DNA of 21,547 nucleotides, from positions 1 through 21,547 of the IMG/VR virus record IMGVR_UViG_3300009161_000271; one strand, 5' to 3'. Positions within the stretch are counted from its first letter, which is position 1. The number at the start of each line of letters is the position of its first letter. Source of the DNA: a virus. A program made the position numbers and the translations under genes. Shown here one piece after another: positions 1 to 20,149 of this stretch. The notes under the pieces are model-generated. The model saw only the letters and a program-made list of their open reading frames with translations, was not told the origin of the DNA and made no database searches.

Positions 1-561
1 AACTCCAATACTTAAATCTTGGATAGCATGACCTTCTTCGCGAATGTCAAGAAACTCCTCAATGTCAGGATGATCGATTGGTAAATATGCGGCAAAACTG
101 CCACGACGAACATTTGATTGTGACACCACACGAGTAACACCGTCAAATAATTCCATAAAGTGTACGGGACCGGAACTTGATCCACCTACACTAATACTTG
201 CACCGCGACCACGCAGTTCTCCGAAATAGCCGGATGTGCCAGCATCATACTTTGTTAACATACCGACTTCGGCAGTCTTTTCAAGAATCGACGCCATGTT
301 ATCCGATATATATGAACCGTTACATGAAATAGATAACCCACGGCCACTACCAAAGTTTGCCCAAATAGGTGACGATAGACTATACCACCCCTTGTACATA
401 TAATCCTCAAACTTGTCGGCAAACCCTTTTTTATTCAAAATCTTTTCGGCAGATTCTGCGATTTGGCGAATGCGTTCAAGTGCGGTTTGGCCTTTAGCCA
501 AATATCCTCTTTCAAGGAAGGTAATTGCTTCCTTGTTTAACCAATAAATTTCCTTTTTCAT
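1..561 (-). CDS. nrdA: Ribonucleotide reductase large subunit, N-terminal part (cut by window edge)
   Basis: This is the class I ribonucleoside-diphosphate reductase alpha chain, which reduces NDPs to dNDPs together with NrdB. I translated it by hand from the ATG at 561; 187 residues are visible and the frame runs open off the left edge. Recognisable family segments in order are SPIWANFG (64-71), the catalytic-site segment GLSISCNGSY with Cys80, DAGTSGYFGELRGRG (106-120), VHFMELFDG (133-141), VVSQSNVRRGSFAAYLPIDH (145-164) and HPDIEEFLDIR (164-174). Only about 63 residues precede SPIWANFG, far fewer than in E. coli NrdA, so the N-terminal ATP-cone is missing. It starts 5 bases after nrdB stops, which indicates co-transcription. 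No clear Shine-Dalgarno is seen. Confidence 0.95.
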   Translation of the reverse strand, partial: MKKEIYWLNKEAITFLERGYLAKGQTALERIRQIAESAEKILNKKGFADKFEDYMYKGWYSLSSPIWANFGSGRGLSISCNGSYISDNMASILEKTAEVGMLTKYDAGTSGYFGELRGRGASISVGGSSSGPVHFMELFDGVTRVVSQSNVRRGSFAAYLPIDHPDIEEFLDIREEGHAIQDLSIGV

Positions 562-1593: not shown

Positions 1594-1614
1594 AATTTCT
1601 AAAAAATAGAAATT
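1594..1614 (-). terminator. AT-rich hairpin at the end of the helicase C-fragment (weak terminator candidate)
   Basis: AATTTCTA and TAGAAATT form a perfect 8-bp stem with a 5-base loop, overlapping the helicase stop codon. On the coding strand it is followed three bases later by TTTTT. The stem is almost all A/T, so termination would be weak at best. Confidence 0.25.
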
Positions 1615-2803
1615 ATAAACTCGAATCATTTCCCTTTTCGTTTTGGCGATGGGAATTCCATTTATTCTTCAATAAATTTTTTACCGAATTACTATCTTCC
1701 TGCATATTTGACTGAATTGCCATAGATTCTCTGGATTTTGCATCAAAGATCTGAATATTTCCCGTACCGGTGTCCATATTTGAATATAAAGTTATACCAT
1801 CTGGTCCAAATCGGTTTTTAATTACGTGAAACCTCGCGGTGTTATTGGCTTTGTCGTCTATATTGCGCGAAAGGCTTAGTACAAAGTCAGCAGTCATGAT
1901 CTTCCTGTAACTATCAGACACATTCTGTGCTTGAACGATATCTTCACCTAAAGCAGTACGATTGGCTTGACTTGCTGTCCAAATTGGAAGTTGCAATTCA
2001 CCTGCGATCTGCCTAAGTTCTTCATATATACTACCGCCTTCGGAATAGCTGTTGCTATTCTTTTCTTTTTCAAGTGGTCGGAGAATATCTGCATAGTCCA
2101 CAATGATTTCATCAATTTTAAAATTGTTCAGCGTCTGAATGCGTTCGACATGAAATTTCAAAGATTGAGCGCACACCGTTTTCAGCGGGAAATACTTAAC
2201 AAAAAGACGGCCCTTGATACTCTTTAATTTTGCCTCGACTGTGGCTTGGTGGTGTTTGATATCTTGGAAATTGATTCCAGTAAAACAACAATCGTATCTC
2301 AATCCGACATAATTTTCATTTAATTCCAATGTAAAATGTGCGACGTTTTTACCCGCCGCCATTGCCTTGGCACCGAGGGAGCAAAGTAGCCAAGAATTGT
2401 GAGATAAAATCCCATTGCTATAATAACAATGTACATCCTCGACCGAGATATCATATAATATTTCATCATTTCCACAATGCTTTTTCTTTATAGACGTTGT
2501 GCCGGACTCGGTTTCTACCACATCCGCGTTCACAATATCTTTTACTTTTTTCCAATCACCATTAATTTTTAATTGATGGTGCTCAGATGTTTTTAATGTT
2601 GTATTATTTTTAAAATACGTGGTAACCGTTTTTTGTTTCTCCGTTCTGAACGCAGTCACGATACGATTGTATCCATATGGAGTATGTACAGACAGTGGGA
2701 ACGGTACAGTCAACGCTGCCAATTCTTTGTCTTCAACGCCGATTCTATGAAATAGATCTTTCATAGAAATTTCTTCTGTTATTAGCCGTTTACGAATTGT
2801 CAT
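1613..2803 (-). CDS. dnaB: DnaB/gp41-type replicative helicase, C-terminal fragment with C-terminal half of a split intein
   Basis: Residues 1-136 are the C-terminal half of an intein and residues 137-396 are the C-extein of a T4 gp41-like helicase. The extein starts at the Walker A serine (SWLLCSLGAKAMAAGK), then TLEL (158-161, catalytic Glu160), Walker B IDEIIVDY (Asp236), and TASQANR (276-282), as in DnaB-family motor domains that unwind the phage replication fork. The start is uncertain. The ATG at 2803 overlaps the upstream endonuclease gene by 14 bases and has no Shine-Dalgarno. An internal ATG at 2764 (Met14) has AGAAG upstream, lies 26 bases after the endonuclease stop and keeps every conserved intein block. 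The protein alone lacks the N-terminal domain and P-loop lysine and should be inactive unless trans-spliced to the fragment encoded at 3756-4589. Confidence 0.92.
   Translation of the reverse strand: MTIRKRLITEEISMKDLFHRIGVEDKELAALTVPFPLSVHTPYGYNRIVTAFRTEKQKTVTTYFKNNTTLKTSEHHQLKINGDWKKVKDIVNADVVETESGTTSIKKKHCGNDEILYDISVEDVHCYYSNGILSHNSWLLCSLGAKAMAAGKNVAHFTLELNENYVGLRYDCCFTGINFQDIKHHQATVEAKLKSIKGRLFVKYFPLKTVCAQSLKFHVERIQTLNNFKIDEIIVDYADILRPLEKEKNSNSYSEGGSIYEELRQIAGELQLPIWTASQANRTALGEDIVQAQNVSDSYRKIMTADFVLSLSRNIDDKANNTARFHVIKNRFGPDGITLYSNMDTGTGNIQIFDAKSRESMAIQSNMQEDSNSVKNLLKNKWNSHRQNEKGNDSSL
2396..2803 (-). other. C-terminal half of the split intein (136 residues, or 123 from Met14)
   Basis: Reading through the half: MKDLFHRIG (14-22), a TPYGYNRI segment (41-48), block B with T72-S-E-H75, block F around YDISVEDVH (117-125), and block G ending NGILSHN with His135-Asn136. 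Ser137 follows as the +1 nucleophile and is also the Walker A serine. All residues needed for the C-terminal splice junction are present. Block B normally sits in the N-terminal half of a canonically split intein; here it is in the C-terminal half. Confidence 0.88.
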
Positions 2804-3722
2804 ATAAAAATTGTTTTATTTTAGTTATTGATTGATTTTTCTGCTTGTTCCAGTCTGATTCCCATACTTCCAACACATCATACCCCATCTCTCGAAGTGT
2901 GTCTACCCTTTTTTTATCATTATTCCAAATTTCTTGAACTGATCGTGGTGTTTCCATATAACCGGCGAGTATTTCATTCGATTTATAAATTGTTGGATTT
3001 GCATGCCAAAAATCTCCGTAAAATTCAATTATTTTTTTATTGATTACGACATCAACAATATATTTGCCGATTGGTTTATTCGCCACCACCATGGGTTCTA
3101 TATTTTCTTTGATGTAATTGTAAAATTCTATCTCCGCTTTACTTGTTCCAGAAAATTTTCCAAAATGGGAAGCCCATTTTCCCGCTCCTATTTCATGAAT
3201 TTTTTGACGCATAGACTTTGATATTTTTATGCGAGAATCAACGGTTCGAGTATGTCCCAAAAATTTTGAAGATTTCGCAGACAATTTGGATTGTCTTTTA
3301 GAAATTTCTTTCTCTGCCATATCTTTGGTATAACCTTTAGCAATCCAATATTCCACTCGCATCCAAGATCGTTTTTCCCAATTTCCTTTGGCAATCGATT
3401 TTTTTGAATTTGATATCTGTATTTCAGTTATTTTTTTCTTCGCTTCTATATCTGAGAATCCTCGCGTCGTCCAATATAATTTAGTGTAAATTGATCCACC
3501 CATTTTTTGTACATCCGACATACGTTTGATGTGGGTAGGATCTTTACATTTTTTTATATTTATGTCTGACAATTTCTTTTTCTGTTGATCGGACATTACC
3601 GATAATGGGACACTTCCGAATTTTATCTTGTAATCGGTTCCATTCATGCCATGTTTGTAGCGTATATGAGAAACGAGTGACGACCCGGAGAATCCGCAAA
3701 CTTTGCATGTTAATATGTTCAT
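2790..3722 (-). CDS. Free-standing homing endonuclease, Vsr-fold/EDxHD type
   Basis: A 310-residue protein likely to cut intein-less helicase alleles at the intein site and so spread the element. The N-terminus carries a C2H2-like zinc finger (Cys6, Cys9, His19, His24: CKVCG ... LVSHIRYKHG). The middle is very basic and holds two copies of a motif, YWTTRGFSDIEAKKKI (83-98) and YWIAKGYTKDMAEKEI (125-140), probably DNA-binding modules. The C-terminal third looks like a Vsr-type nuclease: EIEFY (197-201), KYIVDVVI with Asp224, IIEFYGDFWHANP (Glu233, Asp237, His240), NNDKKR (Asp269) and GYDVLEVWESDW (280-291). Exact catalytic residues are my alignment by eye. It sits between the two helicase fragments and its 3' end overlaps the longer reading of the C-fragment. 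Confidence 0.85.
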   Translation of the reverse strand: MNILTCKVCGFSGSSLVSHIRYKHGMNGTDYKIKFGSVPLSVMSDQQKKKLSDINIKKCKDPTHIKRMSDVQKMGGSIYTKLYWTTRGFSDIEAKKKITEIQISNSKKSIAKGNWEKRSWMRVEYWIAKGYTKDMAEKEISKRQSKLSAKSSKFLGHTRTVDSRIKISKSMRQKIHEIGAGKWASHFGKFSGTSKAEIEFYNYIKENIEPMVVANKPIGKYIVDVVINKKIIEFYGDFWHANPTIYKSNEILAGYMETPRSVQEIWNNDKKRVDTLREMGYDVLEVWESDWNKQKNQSITKIKQFLYDNS

Positions 3723-3727
3723 ATTAG

Positions 3728-3735
3728 ATAAATAT
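3728..3735 (-). promoter_or_regulatory. ATATTTAT box before the endonuclease gene
   Basis: The recurrent coding-strand octamer lies only 5 bases before the endonuclease ATG, inside the 33-base gap after the N-fragment. As a promoter it would give an almost leaderless transcript, so a role in translation or processing is an alternative. Confidence 0.35.
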
Positions 3736-3755
3736 AAACAATTGGAATAAAAACT

Positions 3756-3974
3756 TCAATTTTTATGTTCTTTTTCCGAATCCAGCACCTGCAACTTTAG
3801 TTTCTCTAATTCGAACAAAATATTGTCAATTTGCCAACCAAATAGCATTCTACCATCAAACTCAAATTTATCGAATGGTTTAAACCATAGTATATATTCT
3901 TTACCAGAATTTCCCTTTATTGGAATACCCGTTTCATAATATTGAATATCGATCTTTGTATTTGGACCGACGCA
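3756..3974 (-). other. N-terminal half of the split intein (72 residues)
   Basis: It begins with block A, CVGPNTKIDI, where the Cys codon is 3974-3972, directly after the helicase P-loop GVGK. The remainder holds KEYILWFKPF and a charged, probably helical tail ending EKEHKN. There is no block B (TxxH) in this half. Residues beyond about 25 may be dispensable for splicing or may serve association with the C-half; this cannot be told from sequence. Confidence 0.85.
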
Positions 3975-4589
3975 CTTACCAACACCAGCGGGTGCCACCA
4001 CAACACCCAGTTCCCCCGGCCCAAGGCCACCGTCCATGAGGGAGTCAACGACGTCCCACCCAGTCGGTACGACTTTACGACACATTTCACTCATGCGTGT
4101 TGCCACGTCAATATTGTAATCGTGTCCTAAATTTCTTTCCATGCCAGCCTTCATTGCCTTATCGACTAGCGACTTGATCTTATCATAATCACCGGACTTC
4201 AAATGATCAACGGACTCGACGATGGCCCCCTTGAGTTTTTGATTTTTACAAAACTCCAAAAATTGATCTTTAACAAATTGTAGATCGCTGTCCCTGATCT
4301 TAAACTGGACCGCCTTCAAATGCTCTACCACGGATGCTTTAAATTCATCCGATTTAATAGTATCCAGTCTCACTGAGAACACTTGTCTACTTGGCATTTC
4401 TCGGTATTGATTGTAACACTGGATTACTTCATTTACGATCCACCGATGTGCCTCGTTTTCGAAAGCATCAATTTCAACGATATCAAGGATTCGTTCCAAG
4501 AAAGATTTGTCGGTTAAAATTCCCGCGATAATCTTGATTTGGAATTCGATTCCGTATTTTTGTAGGTTGTCTATGATTACTGGTGCCAT
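3756..4589 (-). CDS. dnaB: DnaB/gp41-type replicative helicase, N-terminal fragment with N-terminal half of a split intein
   Basis: Residues 1-205 are the N-extein: an all-helical N-terminal domain and linker, then the start of the RecA-like motor (VPTGWDVVDSLMDGGLGPGELGVVVAPAGVGK), ending at the P-loop lysine 205. Residue 206 is Cys1 of an intein and 72 intein residues follow before the TGA. The fragment ends in the middle of the Walker A motif, so alone it cannot bind ATP normally; trans-splicing to the 1613-2803 product would restore GVGKS. The ATG at 4589 is the only sensible start, though no Shine-Dalgarno precedes it. It follows the 5' nuclease gene by 45 bases. Confidence 0.92.
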   Translation of the reverse strand: MAPVIIDNLQKYGIEFQIKIIAGILTDKSFLERILDIVEIDAFENEAHRWIVNEVIQCYNQYREMPSRQVFSVRLDTIKSDEFKASVVEHLKAVQFKIRDSDLQFVKDQFLEFCKNQKLKGAIVESVDHLKSGDYDKIKSLVDKAMKAGMERNLGHDYNIDVATRMSEMCRKVVPTGWDVVDSLMDGGLGPGELGVVVAPAGVGKCVGPNTKIDIQYYETGIPIKGNSGKEYILWFKPFDKFEFDGRMLFGWQIDNILFELEKLKLQVLDSEKEHKN

Positions 4590-4634
4590 GATTCAAACGA
4601 TATGATAATAGGTGGTGCCCGTCAATAAAAAAAT

Positions 4635-5684
4635 TCAAGATCTGGCCGAAATCGACAATGGCCAGAATACTTCTTGCAGCCAAACGTGATAATTCGATAT
4701 CGATGCTTGCATACGGTTACGAGTCATTTTTTGAATGAATTGTATCTTGTTATATTCAAAAATTCTTTCCGCTGAACTTTCAACGTTCATTTGTAACGAC
4801 GGAGAGAAGTCTGGATTTTTAAGCTGCATCAATTTATAATTTCTATGAATGATTTCGTGACTATCAAGTACTTTTGCAAATATCTTCTTCTCGTTATATT
4901 GATCCTTACTACGAGCGAGTATTTCTTCTATCGAACTTTCTTTTTCTTCGGTAAGCATAGGAAAAGATTTAATAGCAGTCTTAAGACCGATCCCATTAAC
5001 ACCGTCGATGTTGTCAGAAGTGTCGCCTTCTAAAATTCGATAATATATAAAATTGGTTGGGTGTACACCATATTCATTGATTACATCTTGTACACCATAT
5101 ATTTTTTTCTTGATTGGACTCCAAATACTAACCCTGTTGTTTACCAATTGCAAAAAATCTTTATCACTACTCATGATGGTAACCTTGGCATCTTTGTACA
5201 TCTGTGTGGATATATACGCAATAGCATCATCTGCTTCAATATAATCCACGCAAACTAAACTGATTGGCAATTCTCGCAAGAAATCAATCAGTAATGACAT
5301 TTGTTGCAACATGGCCTTTTTCTCTGTGTCTGGTGTTCCCATATCCTCATACGCACGGTTTACGCGCACCGACATTGCTCGCTTGTCTTTATATTCTGGA
5401 TATAACTTCTTTCTCTTCAAGCTTCCGCCCTTTCCATCAAATACAATGATGACTCTAGTCGGCTTTAACATTTTTATGGCATAGCCCATACTAGTAAGAA
5501 ATCCACTGATCCCGCCAACATGTTCACCGTTATCATTTAAAGTTGGGACAACTGTCCAGCATCTAATGAACGAATTTGTACCATCGACCACCAAGATATT
5601 GCTATTTTTAGTCCGAGCAAAATTCACGGGAGCGTTGCTGTGCTCTTGTTTTATTTGCTCAAATATAGATTTAAATTTATTCAT
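4635..5684 (-). CDS. rnh: 5'-3' exonuclease of the T4 RNase H/FEN family
   Basis: A metal-dependent 5' nuclease that removes RNA primers and 5' flaps during lagging-strand synthesis. The acidic metal-binding residues are in family order: ILVVDGTNSF (Asp34), VIIVFDGKGG (Asp83) followed by the basic arch segment LKRKKLYPEYKDKR (89-102), DYIEADDAIAY (Glu150, Asp152, Asp153), IMSSDKDFLQL (Asp174, Asp176), and LEGDTSDNIDGVNGIGLKTA (Asp221, Asp224, then a helix-hairpin-helix). The 349-residue length is slightly above that of T4 RNase H (305). It sits between uvsX and the helicase, in a single-strand replication cluster. The ATG at 5684 has no Shine-Dalgarno but lies just after a strong hairpin. Confidence 0.92.
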   Translation of the reverse strand: MNKFKSIFEQIKQEHSNAPVNFARTKNSNILVVDGTNSFIRCWTVVPTLNDNGEHVGGISGFLTSMGYAIKMLKPTRVIIVFDGKGGSLKRKKLYPEYKDKRAMSVRVNRAYEDMGTPDTEKKAMLQQMSLLIDFLRELPISLVCVDYIEADDAIAYISTQMYKDAKVTIMSSDKDFLQLVNNRVSIWSPIKKKIYGVQDVINEYGVHPTNFIYYRILEGDTSDNIDGVNGIGLKTAIKSFPMLTEEKESSIEEILARSKDQYNEKKIFAKVLDSHEIIHRNYKLMQLKNPDFSPSLQMNVESSAERIFEYNKIQFIQKMTRNRMQASISNYHVWLQEVFWPLSISARS

Positions 5685-5692
5685 TTAATGAG

Positions 5693-5724
5693 AATCGCGT
5701 GGAGGTATTTCACTCCACGCGATT
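5693..5724 (-). other. Perfect 12-bp hairpin between uvsX and the 5' nuclease gene
   Basis: AATCGCGTGGAG and CTCCACGCGATT form an uninterrupted 12-bp stem with an 8-base loop, filling most of the 45-base gap. On the coding strand no U-run follows (CTCATTAA, then ATG), so it is not a standard intrinsic terminator. It may stabilise or process the uvsX mRNA end, or damp translation of the next gene. Eight bases separate the stem from the ATG. Confidence 0.6.
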
Positions 5725-5729
5725 GTTGA

Positions 5730-6944
5730 TTATTCGTCTAATCCGTCAGCGCCAGAATCGTATTCGATGTCGTCAGACATTTCCGAATTTGGAGCCTTGT
5801 ATTTCATGACGAAGCTTTCGCATATCTTTCCATACAAGTAGTCCTTGCAATCCGAGCGTTGAGATAGAAGTTTCGGCAAGTCTTTCTTTTCAAAAATGAC
5901 TGTCTCTGGGTCTTTACCTTCGACTGGCATGATGAACTGGAGATTCTTTGCTTTCTTATCTTCTTCCTTCTCGTCTTCCAATTGTTTCTTGGTCTTCTTT
6001 ACATCAGATTTAACTTTTTTCGCGTTTGTAACGATATCCCATTCGATTAGCTTTTCCAGCCAATTTCCATAGTTATCAATGCCACGGTCGAAGAAAATAT
6101 CAAATTCAACACTTCTCATGGGCGGACCCATGCGATTTTTGATAACAGTACATTTGGTTTTGATGCCAATAGCTTGTTTGTCCGCGTTTTTGATTTGGCC
6201 AATTGACTTTAGTCTTAGACGCAACGATGCGTGAAATGCAAGTGCTTTTCCGCCGCTCGTGGTATATGGATCACCGAGGCCAACAAATCCAACTTTCTGA
6301 CGTAGTTGGTTTGTGAAAGCCAAGCAGATGCGTTGCTTGGCAATCAGTCCGGTGATTTTTCTCATGGCCTTACTGATAGCGATAGCTTTTCCAGTTGCAA
6401 ATCCGTCGGCACCGTGGTCGCTTGCCATTTCCTTCTTAGTAGAAGCGGCTGCAACAGAGTCAACCAAGATGGTGACCAAACGATTTTTGCTAGATTTGCG
6501 AACCAGCGCGATCATTTCTTCGATCTTGTCAAAGATATCTTCGACAGTGTCAACGTTGATATACAACATCTTCGATACATCCACACCGATTGCATTTAAG
6601 AATTCCGGTGAAACAGACGTTTCCGTATCAATGAATACTGCAAGTCCACCTTTGCGTTGCGTTTCTGCAAGCAAATGTGCACCCATCAAACTTTTACCAG
6701 ATGCTTCTAAACCGGTAAGTTCGGTGATTCTACCAACCGGTAGTCCGGCATTTGGCCGATTAGCAATTGCCAAGTCAACTAAACTATTTCCACTAGAAAC
6801 CCAATCCACAATTTGAGACGGGTCATCTTCGGCGTCCAAAAAGAAAGCGACTTTTCCGTCACTGTTCTTGTTCAACGACTCAGCCAATGCTTCGGCCAAC
6901 TCGTCACGTACTGCATCAGGTTCATTATTTTTTTTATCTTTCAT
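5730..6944 (-). CDS. uvsX: UvsX/RecA-family recombinase
   Basis: A strand-exchange ATPase that forms filaments on single-stranded DNA and drives recombination-dependent replication and repair. Walker A is GLEASGKS (78-85), the catalytic Glu is likely E108 in VFIDTET, Walker B is VTILVDS (157-163), then FTNQLRQKVG (210-219, loop L1 region) and TTSGGKALAFHASLRLRL (228-245, loop L2 and following strand). These segments read as closer to bacterial RecA than I would expect for T4 UvsX. A lysine/glutamate-rich insert (306-334) and an acidic tail (SDDIEYDSGADGLDE, 390-404) follow the core. At 404 residues it is close to T4 UvsX (391). It sits downstream of gp32, its functional partner, behind a terminator. 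The start has no Shine-Dalgarno. Confidence 0.93.
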   Translation of the reverse strand: MKDKKNNEPDAVRDELAEALAESLNKNSDGKVAFFLDAEDDPSQIVDWVSSGNSLVDLAIANRPNAGLPVGRITELTGLEASGKSLMGAHLLAETQRKGGLAVFIDTETSVSPEFLNAIGVDVSKMLYINVDTVEDIFDKIEEMIALVRKSSKNRLVTILVDSVAAASTKKEMASDHGADGFATGKAIAISKAMRKITGLIAKQRICLAFTNQLRQKVGFVGLGDPYTTSGGKALAFHASLRLRLKSIGQIKNADKQAIGIKTKCTVIKNRMGPPMRSVEFDIFFDRGIDNYGNWLEKLIEWDIVTNAKKVKSDVKKTKKQLEDEKEEDKKAKNLQFIMPVEGKDPETVIFEKKDLPKLLSQRSDCKDYLYGKICESFVMKYKAPNSEMSDDIEYDSGADGLDE

Positions 6945-9374: not shown

Positions 9375-9382
9375 ATAAATAT
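9375..9382 (-). promoter_or_regulatory. ATATTTAT box, distal, before the 288-residue gene
   Basis: Second copy in the same gap, overlapping the last base of the polymerase stop codon and 52 bases before the next ATG. Confidence 0.4.
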
Positions 9383-10752
9383 CACCCCATCTCTATCTTA
9401 TGCATTTCGGCGTAATTTTTCCCTATATAAACTTTGACCGGAAGATCGTCCGCTTCCATGATTTTTTTAAGCTCTTTTATAATATCTAACTTATCGTCTC
9501 CATGGGCGTCGAACAGTATACTGTCATATGTATATAAAATCGGCTTGGTCTTTCTATCTGCGCAGTATCCTAGTAGTTGTTTTAATGTCTTTACGGCCAT
9601 TTCGGTTTCGTATGCCTGTAAGATATAATTAAATAGCTTGTTTGGTGTAGGATCTTCGATGTGACAATCTCTGATTTTACGCTTAAACACTGGAGTTTCT
9701 ATATATCCATTCTGTTTAAAAAACTTCCAGCGGTGGTCAATATATTCCTGTGCCTTCTTATAATAAGGTATGTACATCCATCTATCGTCGATTCCACCAT
9801 ACATTTGATGAAATGTCAGCCCTTTTGATACTGCAATGTCTTCCTCGTCGGCTTCCGGCTTGTTGAAATAGTACTTGGCTAAATATTCATACGGGTTTAC
9901 GTCGTAAGATATTGGGTAGTTTATCAAACGTGCAACCAATCTTGGATGAAACGCATTATAGTCCATCATCACTAACATACCGTTGTCTCCGTGCCTAGAA
10001 ACGAAAGAATTTCTAGATCCGTCGGTCTTGTTAAGTGCCGCATAGTTTACGCCGCCAAACCGATTAGAAGGTCGTCCGGTAGATGTAAATAGGTTGTATT
10101 GTGAGTATACCGTGTTGTTCTTGATGTGCTTCTTCTGCTCAGGACCAAACACGTCAATGAATTTATCAACGTCGATGGTCATGCCTATTGACTCCAACTC
10201 TGAAAAACAGTTTGTCATCATGTCGTTCACGAACTTGAAACCGTCTTCGTTTATATATTTCAACGAGAACTCATCCGCAATGCGTGATTTTTTAAACAAC
10301 GACGCATGTTTGTATAATGGCACGGAACGATTTACATTCGGAATCCCTCTAAAATTATTTTTTATAAATACGTGAGCATTTGTTTCTGTTAGAGTTTCAT
10401 CGGGGGCGTCACCAGCATTAAGGTAGTCGATTACACTCAAGTCGATAAACCCAAAGTCTTTACCGATAAGGTGGATAATATCTTTCTTGTTATTAACCAA
10501 TTTCACCGCGTTCGATTTTTCAAGCGCATTTCTAAATGCATCAAACGCCATAGGAAAAATCGTTGCTTCGTTGTGATTAATTGGTAAACACCAATACTCG
10601 TCATCAGCAACAAACTTGATGAAAATCAACGAGATAGTGTTGTTGTATGAATGTTTCTCATCGTCGGACATAACCAATTCCATATAAAACGTGTCGGTAG
10701 CGACGCGGTTTAACAGTAATCCTAGACTTTCGGTTGATTCGACTATATTCAC
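9382..10752 (-). CDS. Divergent compact family A DNA polymerase
   Basis: A template-directed DNA polymerase, identified from the ordered Pol I-type motifs: FTSTGRPSN (222-230), motif A MMDYNAFHPRLVARL (262-276, catalytic Asp264), fingers helix K310-x3-F314-x3-Y318 (SKGLTFHQMYGG), NYILQAYETEM (375-385, Gln379), and motif C YTYDSILFD (407-415, catalytic Asp410, with Tyr for the usual His and Ser for the usual Glu). The Arg normally four residues before the fingers Lys is Ile306. Residues 1-165 resemble a 3'-5' exonuclease fold (ISLIFIKF ... YWCLPINHNEA) but lack the D-x-E pair, so proofreading is probably lost. At 456 residues it is much shorter than Klenow fragment (about 605). The start is GTG inside a hairpin; an in-frame TAA lies just upstream. 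Replicase or auxiliary enzyme cannot be decided. Confidence 0.85.
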   Translation of the reverse strand: MNIVESTESLGLLLNRVATDTFYMELVMSDDEKHSYNNTISLIFIKFVADDEYWCLPINHNEATIFPMAFDAFRNALEKSNAVKLVNNKKDIIHLIGKDFGFIDLSVIDYLNAGDAPDETLTETNAHVFIKNNFRGIPNVNRSVPLYKHASLFKKSRIADEFSLKYINEDGFKFVNDMMTNCFSELESIGMTIDVDKFIDVFGPEQKKHIKNNTVYSQYNLFTSTGRPSNRFGGVNYAALNKTDGSRNSFVSRHGDNGMLVMMDYNAFHPRLVARLINYPISYDVNPYEYLAKYYFNKPEADEEDIAVSKGLTFHQMYGGIDDRWMYIPYYKKAQEYIDHRWKFFKQNGYIETPVFKRKIRDCHIEDPTPNKLFNYILQAYETEMAVKTLKQLLGYCADRKTKPILYTYDSILFDAHGDDKLDIIKELKKIMEADDLPVKVYIGKNYAEMHKIEMG

Positions 10753-10788: not shown

Positions 10789-11178
10789 TCAATATCCGCG
10801 CCAATACTCAACCAAGTTTGACAAGACAACCGAAAGATCAACTCCGGTTTCAACCTTCGCTCGATTGATTTCGGCTGCGTTATTTTCAGAAACGCTTGAC
10901 TTTTCGATAATACCGTTGACAATTTTCTTTTCTTTTGACCCCGATATTTTCCATGTCAAATTCACGATAACATATAAATTTTTGTCCAATCCAGATATTT
11001 TAGCCGGATCTATTTCAATTATTTTATCCTCGTTTATTTTTTTCGCAAAATATCTAACCAAGATTCCAGAACGATATTGTTCTTTTGTTGGTACTGGATT
11101 ATATTCCATAGGAGGGCTTCCAGTAAAAATTACCGAAGTGTTTCCATACTCAGATACTAATTTATCATTGTAAATCAT
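10789..11178 (-). CDS. Unrecognised 129-residue protein downstream of the hub gene
   Basis: I do not recognise a family. The N-terminal third contains SVIFTGSPPMEYNPVPTKEQ (15-34) and GILVRYFAKKINEDKIIEI (38-56), followed by a beta-rich segment (LYVIVNLTWKISG) and a helical tail ending VEYWRGY. It has no membrane segment or signal peptide. Its ATG overlaps the stop of the 781-residue hub-like gene by 4 bases (ATGA), indicating tight coupling, so a small baseplate or virion component made with the hub protein is the most likely role. The polymerase gene follows after 36 bases. Confidence 0.75.
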   Translation of the reverse strand: MIYNDKLVSEYGNTSVIFTGSPPMEYNPVPTKEQYRSGILVRYFAKKINEDKIIEIDPAKISGLDKNLYVIVNLTWKISGSKEKKIVNGIIEKSSVSENNAAEINRAKVETGVDLSVVLSNLVEYWRGY

Positions 11179-13520
11179 TGGCGAGTCCTTGATATTTGTC
11201 TTAATTCAGCACCAATCGTAGTTTTCCATGTACCGTATGAAATATTATGTTTTACCGATTTTATCGACCAGATTGCATTTTTATAAGAATATTGTTCAGG
11301 TACATGATCCAGTGTATACATTCCAAGAAAAGTGAATCCGGCAATTCCCAAAATTTCAAATTCAAACGTTGTATTTGGCATTACGGGTGTATTGACATAC
11401 GCGGCGGCGGCGTTTCTATCTTCCATCACAATTTGTTTCATCAAAGTGTCAGAAGGCTCATTTAAATAAAAATCCACATTTCCGCGTGAACATATATTGA
11501 ATCCTTCATCGGACGTATTTCTACTAAGTTTTGCTTTTTTGTTTGTAGCGTCCGTATTTGACGTTGTTGACGGTGACTTGTATGCCTTTTCGGCCAAGCG
11601 GTCATTAGACACAAACCTACCAAAAGATGCGGCGTTCTCGGTTGGTTTTGTTTTACCATCGTCTTTATTTTCAGTATCGTTTGGAGCTTTCTTTCCTTTT
11701 TCTCTTTCCGCCAGTTCAGCGGAACCCGCCGTAAACAATACTTGACTCGCCATCTCAGGACTCATTTTTACATCCATCCCAGCACTTAGTAAATATGCAT
11801 GATTCACCGAACCAGGTACAATTCTGGTCAACTCCGCTGCGGTTTTTTCATTTAACACCGGTGCAAATTTTATGTCCATCACGGTCACATAATTTTCATT
11901 GTTGTTAGTGTCTGGAATCAACCGCAATTCGTTTACACCGGAGAGAGCATGTGATATTTTACTAAGAATTGACGCCATCATTGATCTGACATTACCGTTC
12001 TCTTTGACCGCAGTCTTTATAAACTCGGTGGAAATGTATATGTCTTTTAAATATCCAAAATATCCAGCACTTTGTTTATAGAAATTACGAGACGACTCGT
12101 CCATTACGTCGGAATCAGAAAATATAGGAAAAGATTTTCCTTTGAAATTCGGGTCTACATCTGTATTAAGAAGAGCTTCTAAATCATCATATTGGTCTGT
12201 GAATTCAAATTCATTCAAAATACTCTGTATTCTTCCGTATTTTTTATAATGTTCGCCATTTTCAATTGTGCTCAAGTTTCCAGTACCTCCAACTCTTCCA
12301 CTTGTGTCACTTCTGATATATTTAGGTGAAAACTTATTTGGTATGATAACATCGGGATCTATGGATTTTAAACCCGGATGCGCTCCTATTAAAACATTAT
12401 CAATTTTTATCTTCTGCCATTGAAATTGAGTTTCTTTATTGTCTTTATCTAAAACAATCGCAGGAAAATTTGTTGTAAAAAAATGATTTAGTATTTCAAC
12501 AAAATAATCCATCCTAATCCACTGCTTTATTGTTGGAAAAAAACTACCTTGTTCAAATCTAAACATTCTACCCATCGGTTTTGGAAAATCTACTGGAAAC
12601 TCCTCATTTAATTTTTTTGGATCTATTGTTGACAACCCAAGCGTGTCCCACTTGCAATATTTATTAAACTCATTGAAGCTTTCTATTTTCTCAAGCTTTC
12701 CGTCTTTATTTTTGCGTTGAAGAGTTTCTTCTCCATAGTTCTGTCCTTCAAATAACCAAGCAACACTTGTGATTGTTGTACTACATTCATATACTCCGTT
12801 ACCAGAAAGTTTATATGTGTAATCTGTTATAATCCCCATATGAGCATCATAATTTCCATTTGAAATTTTTGCTTTTTCTAAAACGGCTTTCGGATTTCCA
12901 AATATTGCTCGTAATTTTTCAATGTTGTAATCAATCAATGACGATGGATCGTAATTATCCCAGCCCCATTCAATCACACATGTTACTCTGGGAGAAAGGA
13001 AATACGGAGCTAAATAATTTAATTGCTCCAAAGAATATGCTTTCCATTTGACGGTGGATTTTCTGCATGCAGCGCTAAATGGCGCTGACTGTCCTCCTTG
13101 CAATTCTACACTTATGTCATCAACGGATGGTGGCGGTCTATGCGGGAACGTGGTTGAAGTTTCGCTCGATACTGTGTGAGGTTTACCATTGGCGTCTAGT
13201 CCAATAGTAGAAAGTTTTTCAGGATTAAAACCTAGACTGTCGTCAAACCCATTAACGCCAAACATTAAAAATCCGTCACGTTCATTTGACGTGTCATTGA
13301 CTTTCATATTATCTACAACTTTGGTCGGTATTCCATTCGAAAAAAATCTTGCCCATGGAGTTTTAACCGCATTCCTTTTACCGGCTCCTGCGCCGTCCAG
13401 CCCATAATCACTCGATCTATTTTGCAATTCTTTAATTACCCATGGCTTTATAGGATGCAGACCCCAAGGAATAAATGTATCTTGGTCAATAGGACCGAGC
13501 GTGTTTGTGTCAGTTGCCAT
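11175..13520 (-). CDS. Large baseplate hub-like structural protein
   Basis: A 781-residue protein without membrane segments or signal. The most striking stretch is QGGQSAPFSAACRKSTVKWK (141-160) followed by EQLNYLAPYFLSPRVTCVIEWGW (165-187), a pattern I associate with tail proteins of large T4-like myoviruses. The C-terminus (FEILGIAGFTFLGMYTLDHV, then WSIKSVKHNISYGTWKTTIGAEL) has the strand pattern seen at the end of hub proteins such as gpD/gp27-like folds. Residues about 600-670 are a charged, low-complexity linker rich in Lys, Thr and Asp. It lies between a LysM wedge protein and a coupled small protein, in the tail module. The exact equivalence to a T4 gene is inference. Confidence 0.7.
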   Translation of the reverse strand: MATDTNTLGPIDQDTFIPWGLHPIKPWVIKELQNRSSDYGLDGAGAGKRNAVKTPWARFFSNGIPTKVVDNMKVNDTSNERDGFLMFGVNGFDDSLGFNPEKLSTIGLDANGKPHTVSSETSTTFPHRPPPSVDDISVELQGGQSAPFSAACRKSTVKWKAYSLEQLNYLAPYFLSPRVTCVIEWGWDNYDPSSLIDYNIEKLRAIFGNPKAVLEKAKISNGNYDAHMGIITDYTYKLSGNGVYECSTTITSVAWLFEGQNYGEETLQRKNKDGKLEKIESFNEFNKYCKWDTLGLSTIDPKKLNEEFPVDFPKPMGRMFRFEQGSFFPTIKQWIRMDYFVEILNHFFTTNFPAIVLDKDNKETQFQWQKIKIDNVLIGAHPGLKSIDPDVIIPNKFSPKYIRSDTSGRVGGTGNLSTIENGEHYKKYGRIQSILNEFEFTDQYDDLEALLNTDVDPNFKGKSFPIFSDSDVMDESSRNFYKQSAGYFGYLKDIYISTEFIKTAVKENGNVRSMMASILSKISHALSGVNELRLIPDTNNNENYVTVMDIKFAPVLNEKTAAELTRIVPGSVNHAYLLSAGMDVKMSPEMASQVLFTAGSAELAEREKGKKAPNDTENKDDGKTKPTENAASFGRFVSNDRLAEKAYKSPSTTSNTDATNKKAKLSRNTSDEGFNICSRGNVDFYLNEPSDTLMKQIVMEDRNAAAAYVNTPVMPNTTFEFEILGIAGFTFLGMYTLDHVPEQYSYKNAIWSIKSVKHNISYGTWKTTIGAELRQISRTRQ

Positions 13521-16054: not shown

Positions 16055-19000
16055 TTAATCTCTTCCACTGGATGCCATTGCTGAAGAAACTTTTCTTCCA
16101 TCTAGATTTACTGCAATACCGCCACTGCGCATTAAAGATATAAGTTCGTCCAATTTGCCACCAATGCCCCCTGCTTCGGTTGGTACTGCTTCTGCGGTTG
16201 GTGCTGCGGTTGGTGCTGCGGTTGGTGCTGCGGCAGATATCACCGACAATGCCGCCATTTTAATAACACTCATGCTTTCCACTTGGCTGTTCAATTTAGA
16301 TAAAGACAATGTCAACTTATCAATTGATAATGTAAATGCATCGACTGCACCAAAATTTGACATCGAGTTGGATATTTTTTGGATAGAATCGGCGGTAAGT
16401 TGCAATTGACTGCCCATTGAAGACAGTTCTTTTAATTTATCAATTGGATCACCACCCAAGAATCCGCCGATAAAATTACCAATGCCAGCAACTGCCGAAC
16501 CTGCACCAAATGCGGCTAAAGCTCCAGCCAGTGCTGTTATACCAAATGCCGTTTTTAATAATCCATCTCCACCTATCTGACCTATTTTATTTAATGTATT
16601 GGACAGTATTTCAAATCCCGGTGATGCTATTTCTATGGCTTTTCCAAATGCGGCTATACTAAGAGACATAAATGCAATCGCCGCTGCCCCTGCCAGTATG
16701 GCCGCAGCAAAAAATCCAATTATAGCAAATGATGCCGCCGCTCCCGCCACAGTTGCTACTCCCATAGCAACACTAGACCAATCAACTTCGCCGAACATTT
16801 GTAATTTTTCAACAACCGTGTCAAAAGCGTCGAAACCCGGTGATGCAATTTCCATTGCAGCTCCAAATGCCATCATTGCCACAGAAAGTACTCCCAAAGA
16901 AATGGCTCCCATTATTATAAATGGAAGGGCCAATCCCAACACGGAAGCGACATATCCTAATCCTAACATGGTAACAAATCCTTTAGCTATAGTTGACCAA
17001 TCCAAATCGCCAAACACAGAAAATGAATTAACTACAATAGAAAGTCCTTCCGCTATTAATTTTATACCAAACGCAAAACCAACAAACGCCAAAGATAAAG
17101 CGGCTACGGCGGCTATACCTAACCAAGCCATAGGATTGCCGCCTAAAGCAGAAAGACCAGCGCTCATAGCAATTAATCCAGCCGAAAACGGTGTTCCGAG
17201 TAAAGCAATTCCCGCCATACCTATTAACCCAGGGAGCATTACCACTAAAGCAAGCGAAGTGAACATTAGCGCTCCTGCACCAAGTAAAACGTCAACACTT
17301 GCCATTTTTTTCAATCCGGACGCAATTCCGCCGAGGGCTTCCTTTACGGCATCACCGTCAATCATCGACAACAATTTTGCACCGGCAACACCGGGAATCA
17401 TAAGAACAAGTCCAATCGACGCGGGTATAAGATTTAAAGCACCGAGTAAAACGTCAACACCTGCCATTTTCTTAAACCCTTTTGCCATTCCTTCAATCGC
17501 GGCAGAAAGCTTTTCACCGTCAATCATAGATAGCAATTTTGCACCAATAACGCCCGGTATCATGACCACAAGTCCAATTGAGGCTGGTATTAAATTAAGT
17601 GCACCTTTCAAAACTTCAACCCCAGCCATCTTTTTTAACCCAGCCGCAAGGTTTGTTAAAAACGACTTGATTCCGGAACCGTTGTTTGACTTCATCGATC
17701 TTGAAGATTTTTCTGTTTTTTCCACACCCTTTGAAATATCAGGAGTGCTAGTCGTAGTGCTCGGACCCTTAACTTTTTCAATAAGCGACTTTGCAAACGA
17801 TCCCACGGCTTTGAATGGTTTTGCAATCATACCCATGACTGCACCAACACCACCGGAACCAAAAAAGATAGCGGCAATTAAACCTGCTCCAGCAATTTGT
17901 ATCAAAGTGCCAACGGTTGTTCCTAAATCTTTAAATTGCTCTTTGACAAATCCTACAGTTTTTGACCAAGATCCAGTACCATCCGCAATAGAGGCAACGC
18001 CATCTGCTATCCATTTGATGGGACTCAATATCCAAGCAAGACCTTTTGCTATCCAACCAACCGCCCATGCTATAAATGAAAAAACGGGAACAACTATTGT
18101 TACCAGTGGGGTAATTATTGGTTCTAGTATGTTTCCAATCGCAACAACCATTGACTCCAAACTATTTTTTAACTTTGTAATCAAACCTTGAATTTTCTGT
18201 TGCATCAACGCTTTTTCGTTTTGTTTTACCAAATCAGCAGAATCTAAGTCGTTTATTTTTTTCAAAGCCGCTAACTCTTTTTCTTGTGCTTTTAGCGTGG
18301 CTTTTTTACTTTCGTCGTTGCCTTTTAATATAGCATCGCGCTGTGCTTCAACCGCCATCATCTTAGTCAAATCTTTAAGTTCCATACCAGCCGCTTTAGC
18401 CAATGCTTCGCGCTGATAAACATTCATCTTGTTGAAATCTCCGGCATTCTTTACCGTTTCCAAAGTGGCTCTGGCGGAATCTTCAACCCTTCCTTCAAAC
18501 GCTAATTGTCTTGCTAGTTGGAAATTAACATTTTTTCCAAGCAACGCGCTCGCTTCCATTTCATCGGTTATACTGTTGCTAAAGTCGAGAATTTTTCTTT
18601 GAGAAGATACGAGTTTGTTTAATTCCATTCCCATCGATCTTGCCGCAATTGCGGATTTCATCAGTTTTGACGGATTTGCACCCAACATACTGAGAGTATC
18701 TTCCGATGCACTTGCCACGTCTTGCATAACCAACTTGAAAGAAATACCCGCTTTGTCAGATATGCCAGCACCAACTTTTATTACATTCATCGCGGCTTGC
18801 TCAGATGCGCCGCCTAATCCTTGGAATGTAGCTAGTACAGCCGCCGAATGTTCTTCAGCAACACCGAGATTTGCACTCATCAACGAAACGTTTTGCAGTG
18901 CCTCTTTACTGACAAGTGATGTTCTGCCAAACACATCGGTCAACGCCTTTGCAGATTTATATACTTGCTCTATACCAATACCCATGTGTTGGAATTCAAG

Positions 19001-20149
19001 ATTTATAGATTCCGCATTTTTGCGCAATTCTACCATTTGCGTATTACTGTATCCCGTTTGTTTTCTAAATTCCTCAGCTGCTTTATCTAAAGCTATAAAT
19101 CTATCATATCCAGATTTTAATATGAGATCCAACAACATGAATGGTTTTGGAATAAGTTTGGATGTATCAAGAAATTTTCTGACAACATTAACATGTTCAC
19201 CCAATGTACCAAGACTTACTTCTTGATTTCGACCAATGTGCTGTAAATATCCAGCTCTTGTCTTTAAACTCATCAAGTCTTCTTTTCCTTGCTCCGCTTC
19301 TTTTTCAGACAAAAGTATGGTTGCCGCCAAATGGTTTTGCATCGCCTCTTCACGATATTGGGAAACGCCCCGCTGCATTTTATCATAAGCTTTTAAACTC
19401 TTGCCGTCATAAAACGATGCGCCGCCGCCAGTCGCTTCGTACTCAGCATTTAGTTTTGCAAACTTACCGTGCATTTCCTCCATTATTGCTTCTTTATCCG
19501 CCGCCTTCATTCTTTTACCTTGAATCTTTGCCATGTCTTCTTCTAGGATTCGGCGCTGTTCCAGAATTGCCAAACGCCTGTCCTCGACTTGCAAGTTTTC
19601 AGTATCGTACTGCATCTGAGCTTGAAGCTGTGTTAATGTTTGCGTGGAACTTGCCCACTCTGCTCTTTTTTTTTCTAAAATACGAGCGTCAACATTTAAC
19701 ATCGCGGTTTTAGAATCTAGTAATTTTTTTTGTGAAATACCTAGGTTGTCAGTAAGTGTTGTTATTAACGAGGTTGCTAACGACGAATCTTTGGCGGTAA
19801 CACGTTCTAATGCTGAAAATTTCTCTTGTTGTGTTATTAAAAATTTTTGTCTCGACGCCGTCTTTTCAAATCCATTTGCCATCTCGTCGATTGCAAACCT
19901 AGCAGCGATACTTCTGGTCCCAAATACTTCCATCATGTTTCCCATCACACCAACTTGTTCGCCGGTCTGTTTTATAACATTAAAAAGTTTTCCAGCATCT
20001 TTCAGTTGGTTCATCACCTGTTTGGTGAAATCGCGAAGGTCTTTAAAACTTCTAGCAGTCTCCTCAAGTGAGTCATTTATGCCAAGGATTTGCTTTGCAA
20101 AGCCTTTCATACTCTCCTCGTCGAATTCTGTTTTATCTTTCTTTGCCAT
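16055..20149 (-). CDS. Tape-measure protein
   Basis: At 1364 residues it is the longest gene here. Residues 1-300 are charged and heptad-like (coiled coil, e.g. LEQRRILEEDMAKIQGKRMK at 196-215). Residues 300-660 are helical, then a hydrophobic zone starts at LEPIITPLVTIVVPVFSFIA (675-694). Residues 837-985 hold a 54-residue tandem repeat (KKMAGVDVLLGALNLIPASI), and 1046-1191 a 73-residue repeat built on FGxxDWS and EIASPGF. The C-terminus has an Ala/Pro/Thr repeat and a short conserved-looking end (DELISLMRSGGIAVNLDGRK). Length, coiled coil, hydrophobic segments and position between gp26-like and baseplate genes together identify the tail-length ruler, which is also expelled during DNA entry. 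At about 0.15 nm per residue it would fit a tail near 200 nm; this is inference. Confidence 0.85.
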   Translation of the reverse strand: MAKKDKTEFDEESMKGFAKQILGINDSLEETARSFKDLRDFTKQVMNQLKDAGKLFNVIKQTGEQVGVMGNMMEVFGTRSIAARFAIDEMANGFEKTASRQKFLITQQEKFSALERVTAKDSSLATSLITTLTDNLGISQKKLLDSKTAMLNVDARILEKKRAEWASSTQTLTQLQAQMQYDTENLQVEDRRLAILEQRRILEEDMAKIQGKRMKAADKEAIMEEMHGKFAKLNAEYEATGGGASFYDGKSLKAYDKMQRGVSQYREEAMQNHLAATILLSEKEAEQGKEDLMSLKTRAGYLQHIGRNQEVSLGTLGEHVNVVRKFLDTSKLIPKPFMLLDLILKSGYDRFIALDKAAEEFRKQTGYSNTQMVELRKNAESINLEFQHMGIGIEQVYKSAKALTDVFGRTSLVSKEALQNVSLMSANLGVAEEHSAAVLATFQGLGGASEQAAMNVIKVGAGISDKAGISFKLVMQDVASASEDTLSMLGANPSKLMKSAIAARSMGMELNKLVSSQRKILDFSNSITDEMEASALLGKNVNFQLARQLAFEGRVEDSARATLETVKNAGDFNKMNVYQREALAKAAGMELKDLTKMMAVEAQRDAILKGNDESKKATLKAQEKELAALKKINDLDSADLVKQNEKALMQQKIQGLITKLKNSLESMVVAIGNILEPIITPLVTIVVPVFSFIAWAVGWIAKGLAWILSPIKWIADGVASIADGTGSWSKTVGFVKEQFKDLGTTVGTLIQIAGAGLIAAIFFGSGGVGAVMGMIAKPFKAVGSFAKSLIEKVKGPSTTTSTPDISKGVEKTEKSSRSMKSNNGSGIKSFLTNLAAGLKKMAGVEVLKGALNLIPASIGLVVMIPGVIGAKLLSMIDGEKLSAAIEGMAKGFKKMAGVDVLLGALNLIPASIGLVLMIPGVAGAKLLSMIDGDAVKEALGGIASGLKKMASVDVLLGAGALMFTSLALVVMLPGLIGMAGIALLGTPFSAGLIAMSAGLSALGGNPMAWLGIAAVAALSLAFVGFAFGIKLIAEGLSIVVNSFSVFGDLDWSTIAKGFVTMLGLGYVASVLGLALPFIIMGAISLGVLSVAMMAFGAAMEIASPGFDAFDTVVEKLQMFGEVDWSSVAMGVATVAGAAASFAIIGFFAAAILAGAAAIAFMSLSIAAFGKAIEIASPGFEILSNTLNKIGQIGGDGLLKTAFGITALAGALAAFGAGSAVAGIGNFIGGFLGGDPIDKLKELSSMGSQLQLTADSIQKISNSMSNFGAVDAFTLSIDKLTLSLSKLNSQVESMSVIKMAALSVISAAAPTAAPTAAPTAEAVPTEAGGIGGKLDELISLMRSGGIAVNLDGRKVSSAMASSGRD
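16196..16231 (-). repeat. Three tandem 12-bp repeats inside the tape-measure gene
   Basis: The plus-strand unit GGTTGGTGCTGC occurs three times without a mismatch and encodes Ala-Pro-Thr-Ala in each copy near the tape-measure C-terminus. Degenerate copies flank it. The copy number is likely to vary by slippage. Confidence 0.85.
16577..17014 (-). repeat. 219-bp (73-residue) degenerate repeat in the tape-measure gene
   Basis: Two copies at residues 1046-1118 and 1119-1191. Anchors FGDLDWS/FGEVDWS and EIASPGFDAF/EIASPGFEIL are both 73 residues apart. A decayed third copy may begin near residue 1190. Confidence 0.7.
17195..17641 (-). repeat. 162-bp (54-residue) tandem repeat in the tape-measure gene
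   Basis: Copies begin at residues 837, 891 and 945, all with GLKKMA/GFKKMA followed by VxVLxGA. The first two share NLIPASIGLVxMIPG and AKLLSMIDG almost exactly; the third diverges after residue 958. The DNA string gtcaacac recurs exactly 162 bases apart (17291 and 17453). Confidence 0.85.

Follow-up and report, generated by a model that had tools for sequence, protein, structure and literature searches.

In a viral DNA of 21,547 nucleotides (IMG/VR record IMGVR_UViG_3300009161_000271, positions 1 to 21,547; this whole stretch is called the window below), a DnaB-like helicase gene is broken within its Walker A motif by an element that encodes two intein fragments and an endonuclease. We are highly confident that this is a fractured-gene homing element lodged in the Walker A codons, in which trans-splicing restores a helicase of 465 residues and the nuclease homes the element into empty alleles. 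The anatomy of the locus, its empty sites, the lateral movement of the element between lineages, the loss of the nuclease and the contiguous homologs are read directly from the computation. With some reserve, we further favor the view that, at this one site, the split intein has repeatedly shed its endonuclease and rejoined into a contiguous, cis-splicing form, the fracture being reversible, and that the family is a new natural kind of split intein with a folded N-terminal fragment (IntN) of 33–74 residues carrying an accessory strand-and-helix subdomain. The features of the locus are listed below (ORF, open reading frame; IntC, C-terminal intein fragment; dN/dS, ratio of nonsynonymous to synonymous substitution rates; related loci carry L numbers).

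3756..4589, minus strand: N-ORF, 277 residues (helicase N-extein of 205, IntN of 72, stop); matches PHROG_19 positions 159–366
3975..4589, minus strand: N-extein, C-terminal ...APAGVGK (Walker A up to Lys); from tblastn and alignment to the uninterrupted alleles L005/L013, L012 and L006
3972..3974, minus strand: intein Cys1, Cys206 of the N-ORF; invariant in 13 aligned N-fragments
3759..3974, minus strand: IntN, 72 residues; from alignment, the AlphaFold2 model of the contiguous relative L142, and dN/dS
2790..3722, minus strand: predicted EDxHD (I-Bth0305I-like) homing endonuclease ORF, free-standing, 310 residues
2790..2803, minus strand: 14-bp overlap of the endonuclease 3' end and the C-ORF start; from coordinates
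1613..2803, minus strand: C-ORF, 396 residues (IntC of 136, helicase C-extein of 260, stop); matches PHROG_19 positions 367–616 and Pfam DnaB_C and Intein_splicing
2396..2803, minus strand: IntC, 136 residues, strand 3 to block G, ending ...SNGILSHN; from an alignment of 14 sequences, with VidaL as best PDB sequence match
2576..2587, minus strand: block B S-x-x-H, Ser73 and His76 of the C-ORF; both invariant
2396..2401, minus strand: block G, penultimate His135 and terminal Asn136; invariant
1616..2395, minus strand: C-extein, first residue the +1 Ser of Walker A (SWLL...); joined to the N-extein in ~37 uninterrupted alleles
2396..3974, minus strand: whole inserted element, 1,579 bp; missing from L005/L013 and other empty alleles

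The N-ORF and the C-ORF match exactly consecutive parts of the PHROG_19 (DnaB-like helicase) profile, which indicates that the gene is broken at a single point in Walker A, GVGK|SWLL, between Lys205 and Ser. As in other fractured genes, one conserved gene is divided between two ORFs whose coding sequences fit together exactly at the break point, and a complete endonuclease ORF lies between the halves. An earlier note on this DNA, made from the sequence alone, had placed a fractured helicase gene at 1613–4589, with a complete endonuclease ORF between its two halves, and had proposed aligning the exteins to gp41/DnaB helicases; the layout is borne out, with the three ORFs on the minus strand at 4589–3756, 3722–2790 and 2803–1613, and both exteins match the profile. 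It also correctly read the C-ORF as beginning with intein sequence that ends in His135-Asn136, after which the helicase resumes at the Walker A Ser. Its description of the N-ORF end holds for GVGK followed by intein Cys1 and fails for the stop that it placed immediately after Cys1, since the 72 residues of IntN, CVGPNTKIDIQYYETG...EKEHKN, precede the stop.

IMG/VR contains ~37 relatives of the window helicase locus in which no sequence separates the exteins. The nearest empty alleles, L005/L013, have exteins 95–99% identical to those of the window and synteny on both flanks, and lack exactly the 1,579-bp element. The L013 allele encodes exactly 465 residues, the length that the earlier note had predicted from joining the exteins (205 + 260), and shares 97.2% identity with the protein predicted to result from splicing. 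A near-identical phage thus has an uninterrupted gene of this length, which shows that the element was inserted and that splicing, as predicted, would yield the intact protein.

A gene spread over two frames on either side of a foreign ORF might also be a pseudogene or an assembly artefact, that is, a decaying helicase disrupted by nuclease insertion. We consider this extremely improbable. The independent contig L001 repeats the window arrangement with 99.97% identity over 8,541 bp, and the same cassette is found in four more contigs and in dozens of more distant ones; the locus is therefore neither chance nor an assembly artefact. All parts are under purifying selection, with dN/dS of about 0.05–0.13 in IntN, IntC and the nuclease. 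Furthermore, a search with the C-extein found a single helicase copy in a 297-kb relative with the same element. Conservation of the catalytic residues and dN/dS values far below 1 for each of the three parts agree with the earlier note, which had judged a pseudogene unlikely.

The residues that define a split intein (Cys/Ser1, block B His, block G His-Asn and a +1 Ser, Thr or Cys) are all present. Cys1, Ser73 and His76 of block B and the terminal His-Asn are invariant among the 13 IntN and 14 IntC sequences aligned, and the +1 residue is Ser in all of them. Together with the purifying selection on both intein halves, this conservation makes trans-splicing of the window helicase halves very probable. 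Inteins can lose splicing yet still associate, and splicing is predicted here from sequence, so that the two ORFs might instead form a non-covalent two-subunit helicase in which the intein halves dock without splicing. Such an arrangement is very unlikely: the break runs through the Walker A loop, GVGK|S, which RecA-fold ATPases require to be continuous in order to bind ATP, the splice residues are invariant across 13–14 loci at low dN/dS, and contiguous versions at the same site must cis-splice to make a helicase.

In the trans-splicing mechanism that we propose, the two pieces of the helicase gene would be translated separately, and the 72-residue IntN would assemble with the 136-residue IntC to form a single Hint fold. 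Ordinary class-1 protein splicing in trans, by Cys1 and Asn136, would ligate the exteins at Lys205-Ser and yield the normal 465-residue helicase. The EDxHD endonuclease would cut uninterrupted helicase alleles of co-infecting phages, and repair would copy the whole element in. The phage would be unharmed, since splicing would restore the Walker A loop. The nuclease could be deleted later, with the split intein left behind on its own, and the two ORFs that carry the intein appear to have joined again into a contiguous intein in several lineages.

Block B is located in the C-half of the window intein. The canonical gp41-1/Npu-type split, between blocks B and F with an IntN of about 90–100 residues, is therefore excluded, and the window intein is not of the gp41-1 style. 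Contiguous relatives were found at the same site by a scan with the IntC alignment (L142 and L143, 204 residues; L146, 187; L176 and L179, 193 each; L168, 172). These relatives align to both halves of the window intein, in agreement with the earlier assignment of the two halves to one intein. The AlphaFold2 model of L142 (predicted local distance difference test, pLDDT, 95.6; predicted template modeling score, pTM, 0.88) shows a Hint fold with Z scores of 19–20 to solved inteins (Foldseek/VIA), with about 137 residues aligned to VidaL at Z 19. By way of this relative, the window halves are predicted to form jointly one Hint fold.

In the L142 model, an insertion at residues about 21–63, made of three short strands and one helix, separates strand 2 (7–20) from strand 3 (71–81). 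The apparent tail of the window IntN is thus predicted to be an internal accessory subdomain, and the split to lie after it, between strands 2 and 3 as in S1-type inteins. The first ~16 residues of IntN correspond to block A and strands 1–2, and the remainder is a conserved accessory segment with invariant Trp30 and Pro33. The dN of the subdomain is 0.016–0.024 against a dS of 0.2–0.42, indicating that it is kept by selection. A newly appended tail was considered and rejected, because the contiguous relatives show the segment as an internal part of the intein. Natural atypically split inteins are broken either immediately after strand 2 or following helix 1, and their IntN has 15–37 residues (PMC13014065, PMC10189870). 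The window IntN, with 72 residues, and those of the family, with 33–74, depart from the S1-type IntN of 15–37 residues that ends directly after strand 2. A tblastn search of annotated phages with the 72-residue IntN gave no match.

The endonuclease is composed of an N-terminal Ros-like zinc finger, two YW..KG-type repeats and a C-terminal nuclease domain. Its AlphaFold2 model has a pLDDT of 80.7 and a pTM of 0.41, so the domain arrangement is uncertain. The top Foldseek match is the catalytic domain of I-Bth0305I (PDB 3R3P; probability 1.0, TM score 0.75 by target length), and the N-terminus matches the Ros zinc finger 2JSP; phmmer against PDB sequences gave nothing real, and only the fold comparison produced matches. 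Glu197, Asp224, His240 and Asp269 are invariant in 13 homologs and were assigned to the letters of the EDxHD motif by eye. The modeled fold and these residues identify the protein as a predicted EDxHD homing endonuclease, and its dN/dS of about 0.13 indicates that it is kept by selection. In the clade L130–L136 the nucleases lack the zinc finger and begin at the YW..KG-type repeats.

The nuclease 3' end overlaps the C-ORF start in 16/16 loci compared, by 4, 14 or 17 bp. Translational coupling is possible and, if true, would tie the C-half of the host protein to the reading of a selfish gene. Several phages with an empty helicase site (L015–L021; e.g., L016 4400–4870) carry an EDxHD-type nuclease ORF, 26% identical, ~1.1 kb upstream of the helicase, which could be a free-standing relative or confer site exclusion.

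Between the window and L002, L003 and L004, extein dS is saturated, while dS in IntN, the nuclease and IntC is 0.3–0.8. Likewise, L002 and L003 differ by a dS of 1.5–3 in the exteins and 0.23–0.33 in the element. An element dS far below that of the exteins indicates that the element moved sideways, and this transfer between lineages, together with empty sites in close relatives, marks it as mobile. Compared with their nearest empty allele, L035 (97% identity), the occupied alleles L003 and L004 show a disproportionate share of differences in the ~8 codons that follow the junction (odds ratio about 13; p about 1e-7 by Fisher's test, with sites treated as independent). Short co-conversion tracts would be expected to produce such an excess. 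For L002 the pattern is weaker, with p about 1e-3 against L037 and no significance against L030.

Several observations weigh against homing and splicing as described here. L003 and L004 share ancestry and are not independent cases of co-conversion, and the signal is weak for the nearest empty pair of the window itself (p 0.04). On a large scale, the distances for intein, nuclease and exteins are correlated to about the same degree (r 0.82–0.84), so that vertical or within-lineage descent also accounts for much of the spread; a Mantel comparison at this scale did not separate cassette and host history. The window record is a 21.5-kb fragment, and its phage may encode a second helicase elsewhere. 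Finally, splicing, cutting and the direction of the fusion events are inferred.

At the helicase site there are 42 distinct inteins: 27 are split forms that include a nuclease, 3 have just a 3' remnant of it, 7 are split and lack a recognized nuclease, and 5 are contiguous. Compared with their close relatives L136 and L152, L135 and L151 lack about 750 bp and about 870 bp, respectively (limits taken from BLAST segments and translated frames), and retain the final nuclease codons, those that overlap the C-ORF start. With these remnants, loss rather than gain is seen directly. Forms without a nuclease and contiguous forms are both dispersed across the tree, and a single clade for either is rejected by the approximately unbiased (AU) test (p about 2e-47 and 1e-4, respectively). 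When the tree is rooted with inteins of SbcC-like proteins, the deepest helicase-site lineages are split, and the contiguous forms are tips nested repeatedly in split clades. The simplest reading, and probably the right one, is that a split intein with a nuclease lost the nuclease and that the ORFs then fused, more than once. This order is inferred, because the contiguous forms have long branches and the alignment is short.

The reverse course, in which ancestral contiguous inteins were invaded by a nuclease and split many times at the same spot, seems to us possible and rather unlikely. A cis-to-trans change is the usual model for the origin of split inteins (as reportedly set out by Dassa et al. 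2009), homing can deliver nuclease genes recurrently, and the long branches make the placement of the cis forms less sure. Against these points stand the deep split lineages and scattered cis tips obtained with the SbcC-type outgroup, the rejection of cis monophyly, the remnants that record loss, and a nuclease that always overlaps the C-ORF start. A search by eye saw no nuclease remains in the linkers of contiguous forms. The literature searched holds no report of a natural trans-to-cis reversion, which does not by itself prove novelty.

Nine relatives (L126, L132, L133, L140, L147–L150 and L153) have a helicase apparently in three ORFs, with a second, canonically split intein in the same gene (about SQ(A/S)NR|C...HN|S; IntN ~90 residues, IntC ~45), often with its own endonuclease. 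Related C-inteins are found in SbcC-like proteins (L180–L184, L188–L192, L194–L199), apparently at Walker A (GGK|C in L190), and in the terminase large subunit (L185–L187); some of these are split with an upstream nuclease and some are contiguous.

In minus-strand order, a 5'-3' exonuclease gene precedes the N-ORF, nrdB (1571–567, minus strand) follows the C-ORF, and a RecA-like gene lies further upstream of the helicase locus. No obvious Shine-Dalgarno motif precedes the N-ORF, the endonuclease ORF or the C-ORF, and none is clear before most window genes. Elsewhere in the window, a 456-residue protein (9382–10752) weakly matches the C-terminal part of a family-A DNA polymerase profile (E 6e-5), as a divergent or partial polymerase. 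Two further proteins, of 781 residues (11175–13520) and 1,364 residues (16055–20149), have no PHROG match at E 0.1; the latter is probably a tape-measure protein.

Fractured genes have been proposed as a missing link in the origin of split inteins, and single examples could not reveal the order of events. Here, one site is found empty, full, nuclease-decaying, nuclease-free and contiguous in related phages, and close pairs (L135/L136, L151/L152, L003/L035 and window/L013) allow gain, loss and fusion to be ordered and tested. A long, probably folded N-fragment in a natural split is useful for comparing assembly with the 15–25-residue fragments in use. In some relatives, the helicase would need two trans-splicing events.

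The basic arrangement is of the known fractured-gene type, as the earlier note had recognized. Dassa et al. 2009 (Nucleic Acids Res 37:2560) reportedly described such genes with split inteins and free-standing Vsr-like endonucleases. In those genes as in the window, a split intein interrupts a phage replication gene and a free-standing Vsr-related endonuclease ORF lies between the halves; a gp41-type helicase is among the host genes. In contrast, the window break lies at intein strands 2/3, after an inserted subdomain, and not at the canonical endonuclease site; moreover, a full series of gain, loss and fusion is found at one site, and some relatives are broken at two sites.

Aes123/Aes508-type fractured PolB genes of Aeromonas phages likewise have a VSR/EDxHD-type endonuclease relative beside a split-intein polymerase, whereas the gene is different and their intein is cysteine-less and canonically split. 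The helicase of Vibrio phage vB_VmeM-32 (KU160494) has the same order of N piece, YW-repeat endonuclease and overlapping C piece; its insertion lies three residues upstream (GVN|TGKS), with a short IntN of 27 residues and about 28% identity. In this phage (L051, KU160494.1 60789–71712) the pieces of the fractured helicase (3044–3742, 3845–4981, 4953–6119) and of a fractured UvsX (742–1656, 2158–2709) are annotated as hypothetical proteins or left unannotated. The window nuclease shares with I-Bth0305I (PDB 3R3P) the predicted fold, the conserved E/D/H/D and tethered DNA-binding modules, and differs in being 17% identical, in its Ros-like zinc finger and YW..KG-type repeats, and in its position between intein halves instead of in a group I intron.

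VidaL (PDB 6VGV) and PolB16 OarG (PDB 8CPN) have the atypical 'S1' split, which falls immediately after strand 2 (PMC13014065, PMC10189870). They resemble the window intein in split topology (before strand 3) and long IntC and, for VidaL, in cysteine-dependent chemistry. VidaL is the closest solved intein both by sequence and by Foldseek, at only about 20% identity. Their natural IntN has 15–37 residues, in contrast to the 72 of the window (33–74 in the family) with its predicted three-strand and helix insertion. Relative to the literature searched, the split position with its accessory subdomain, the life-cycle series at one site and the three-piece helicases are new.

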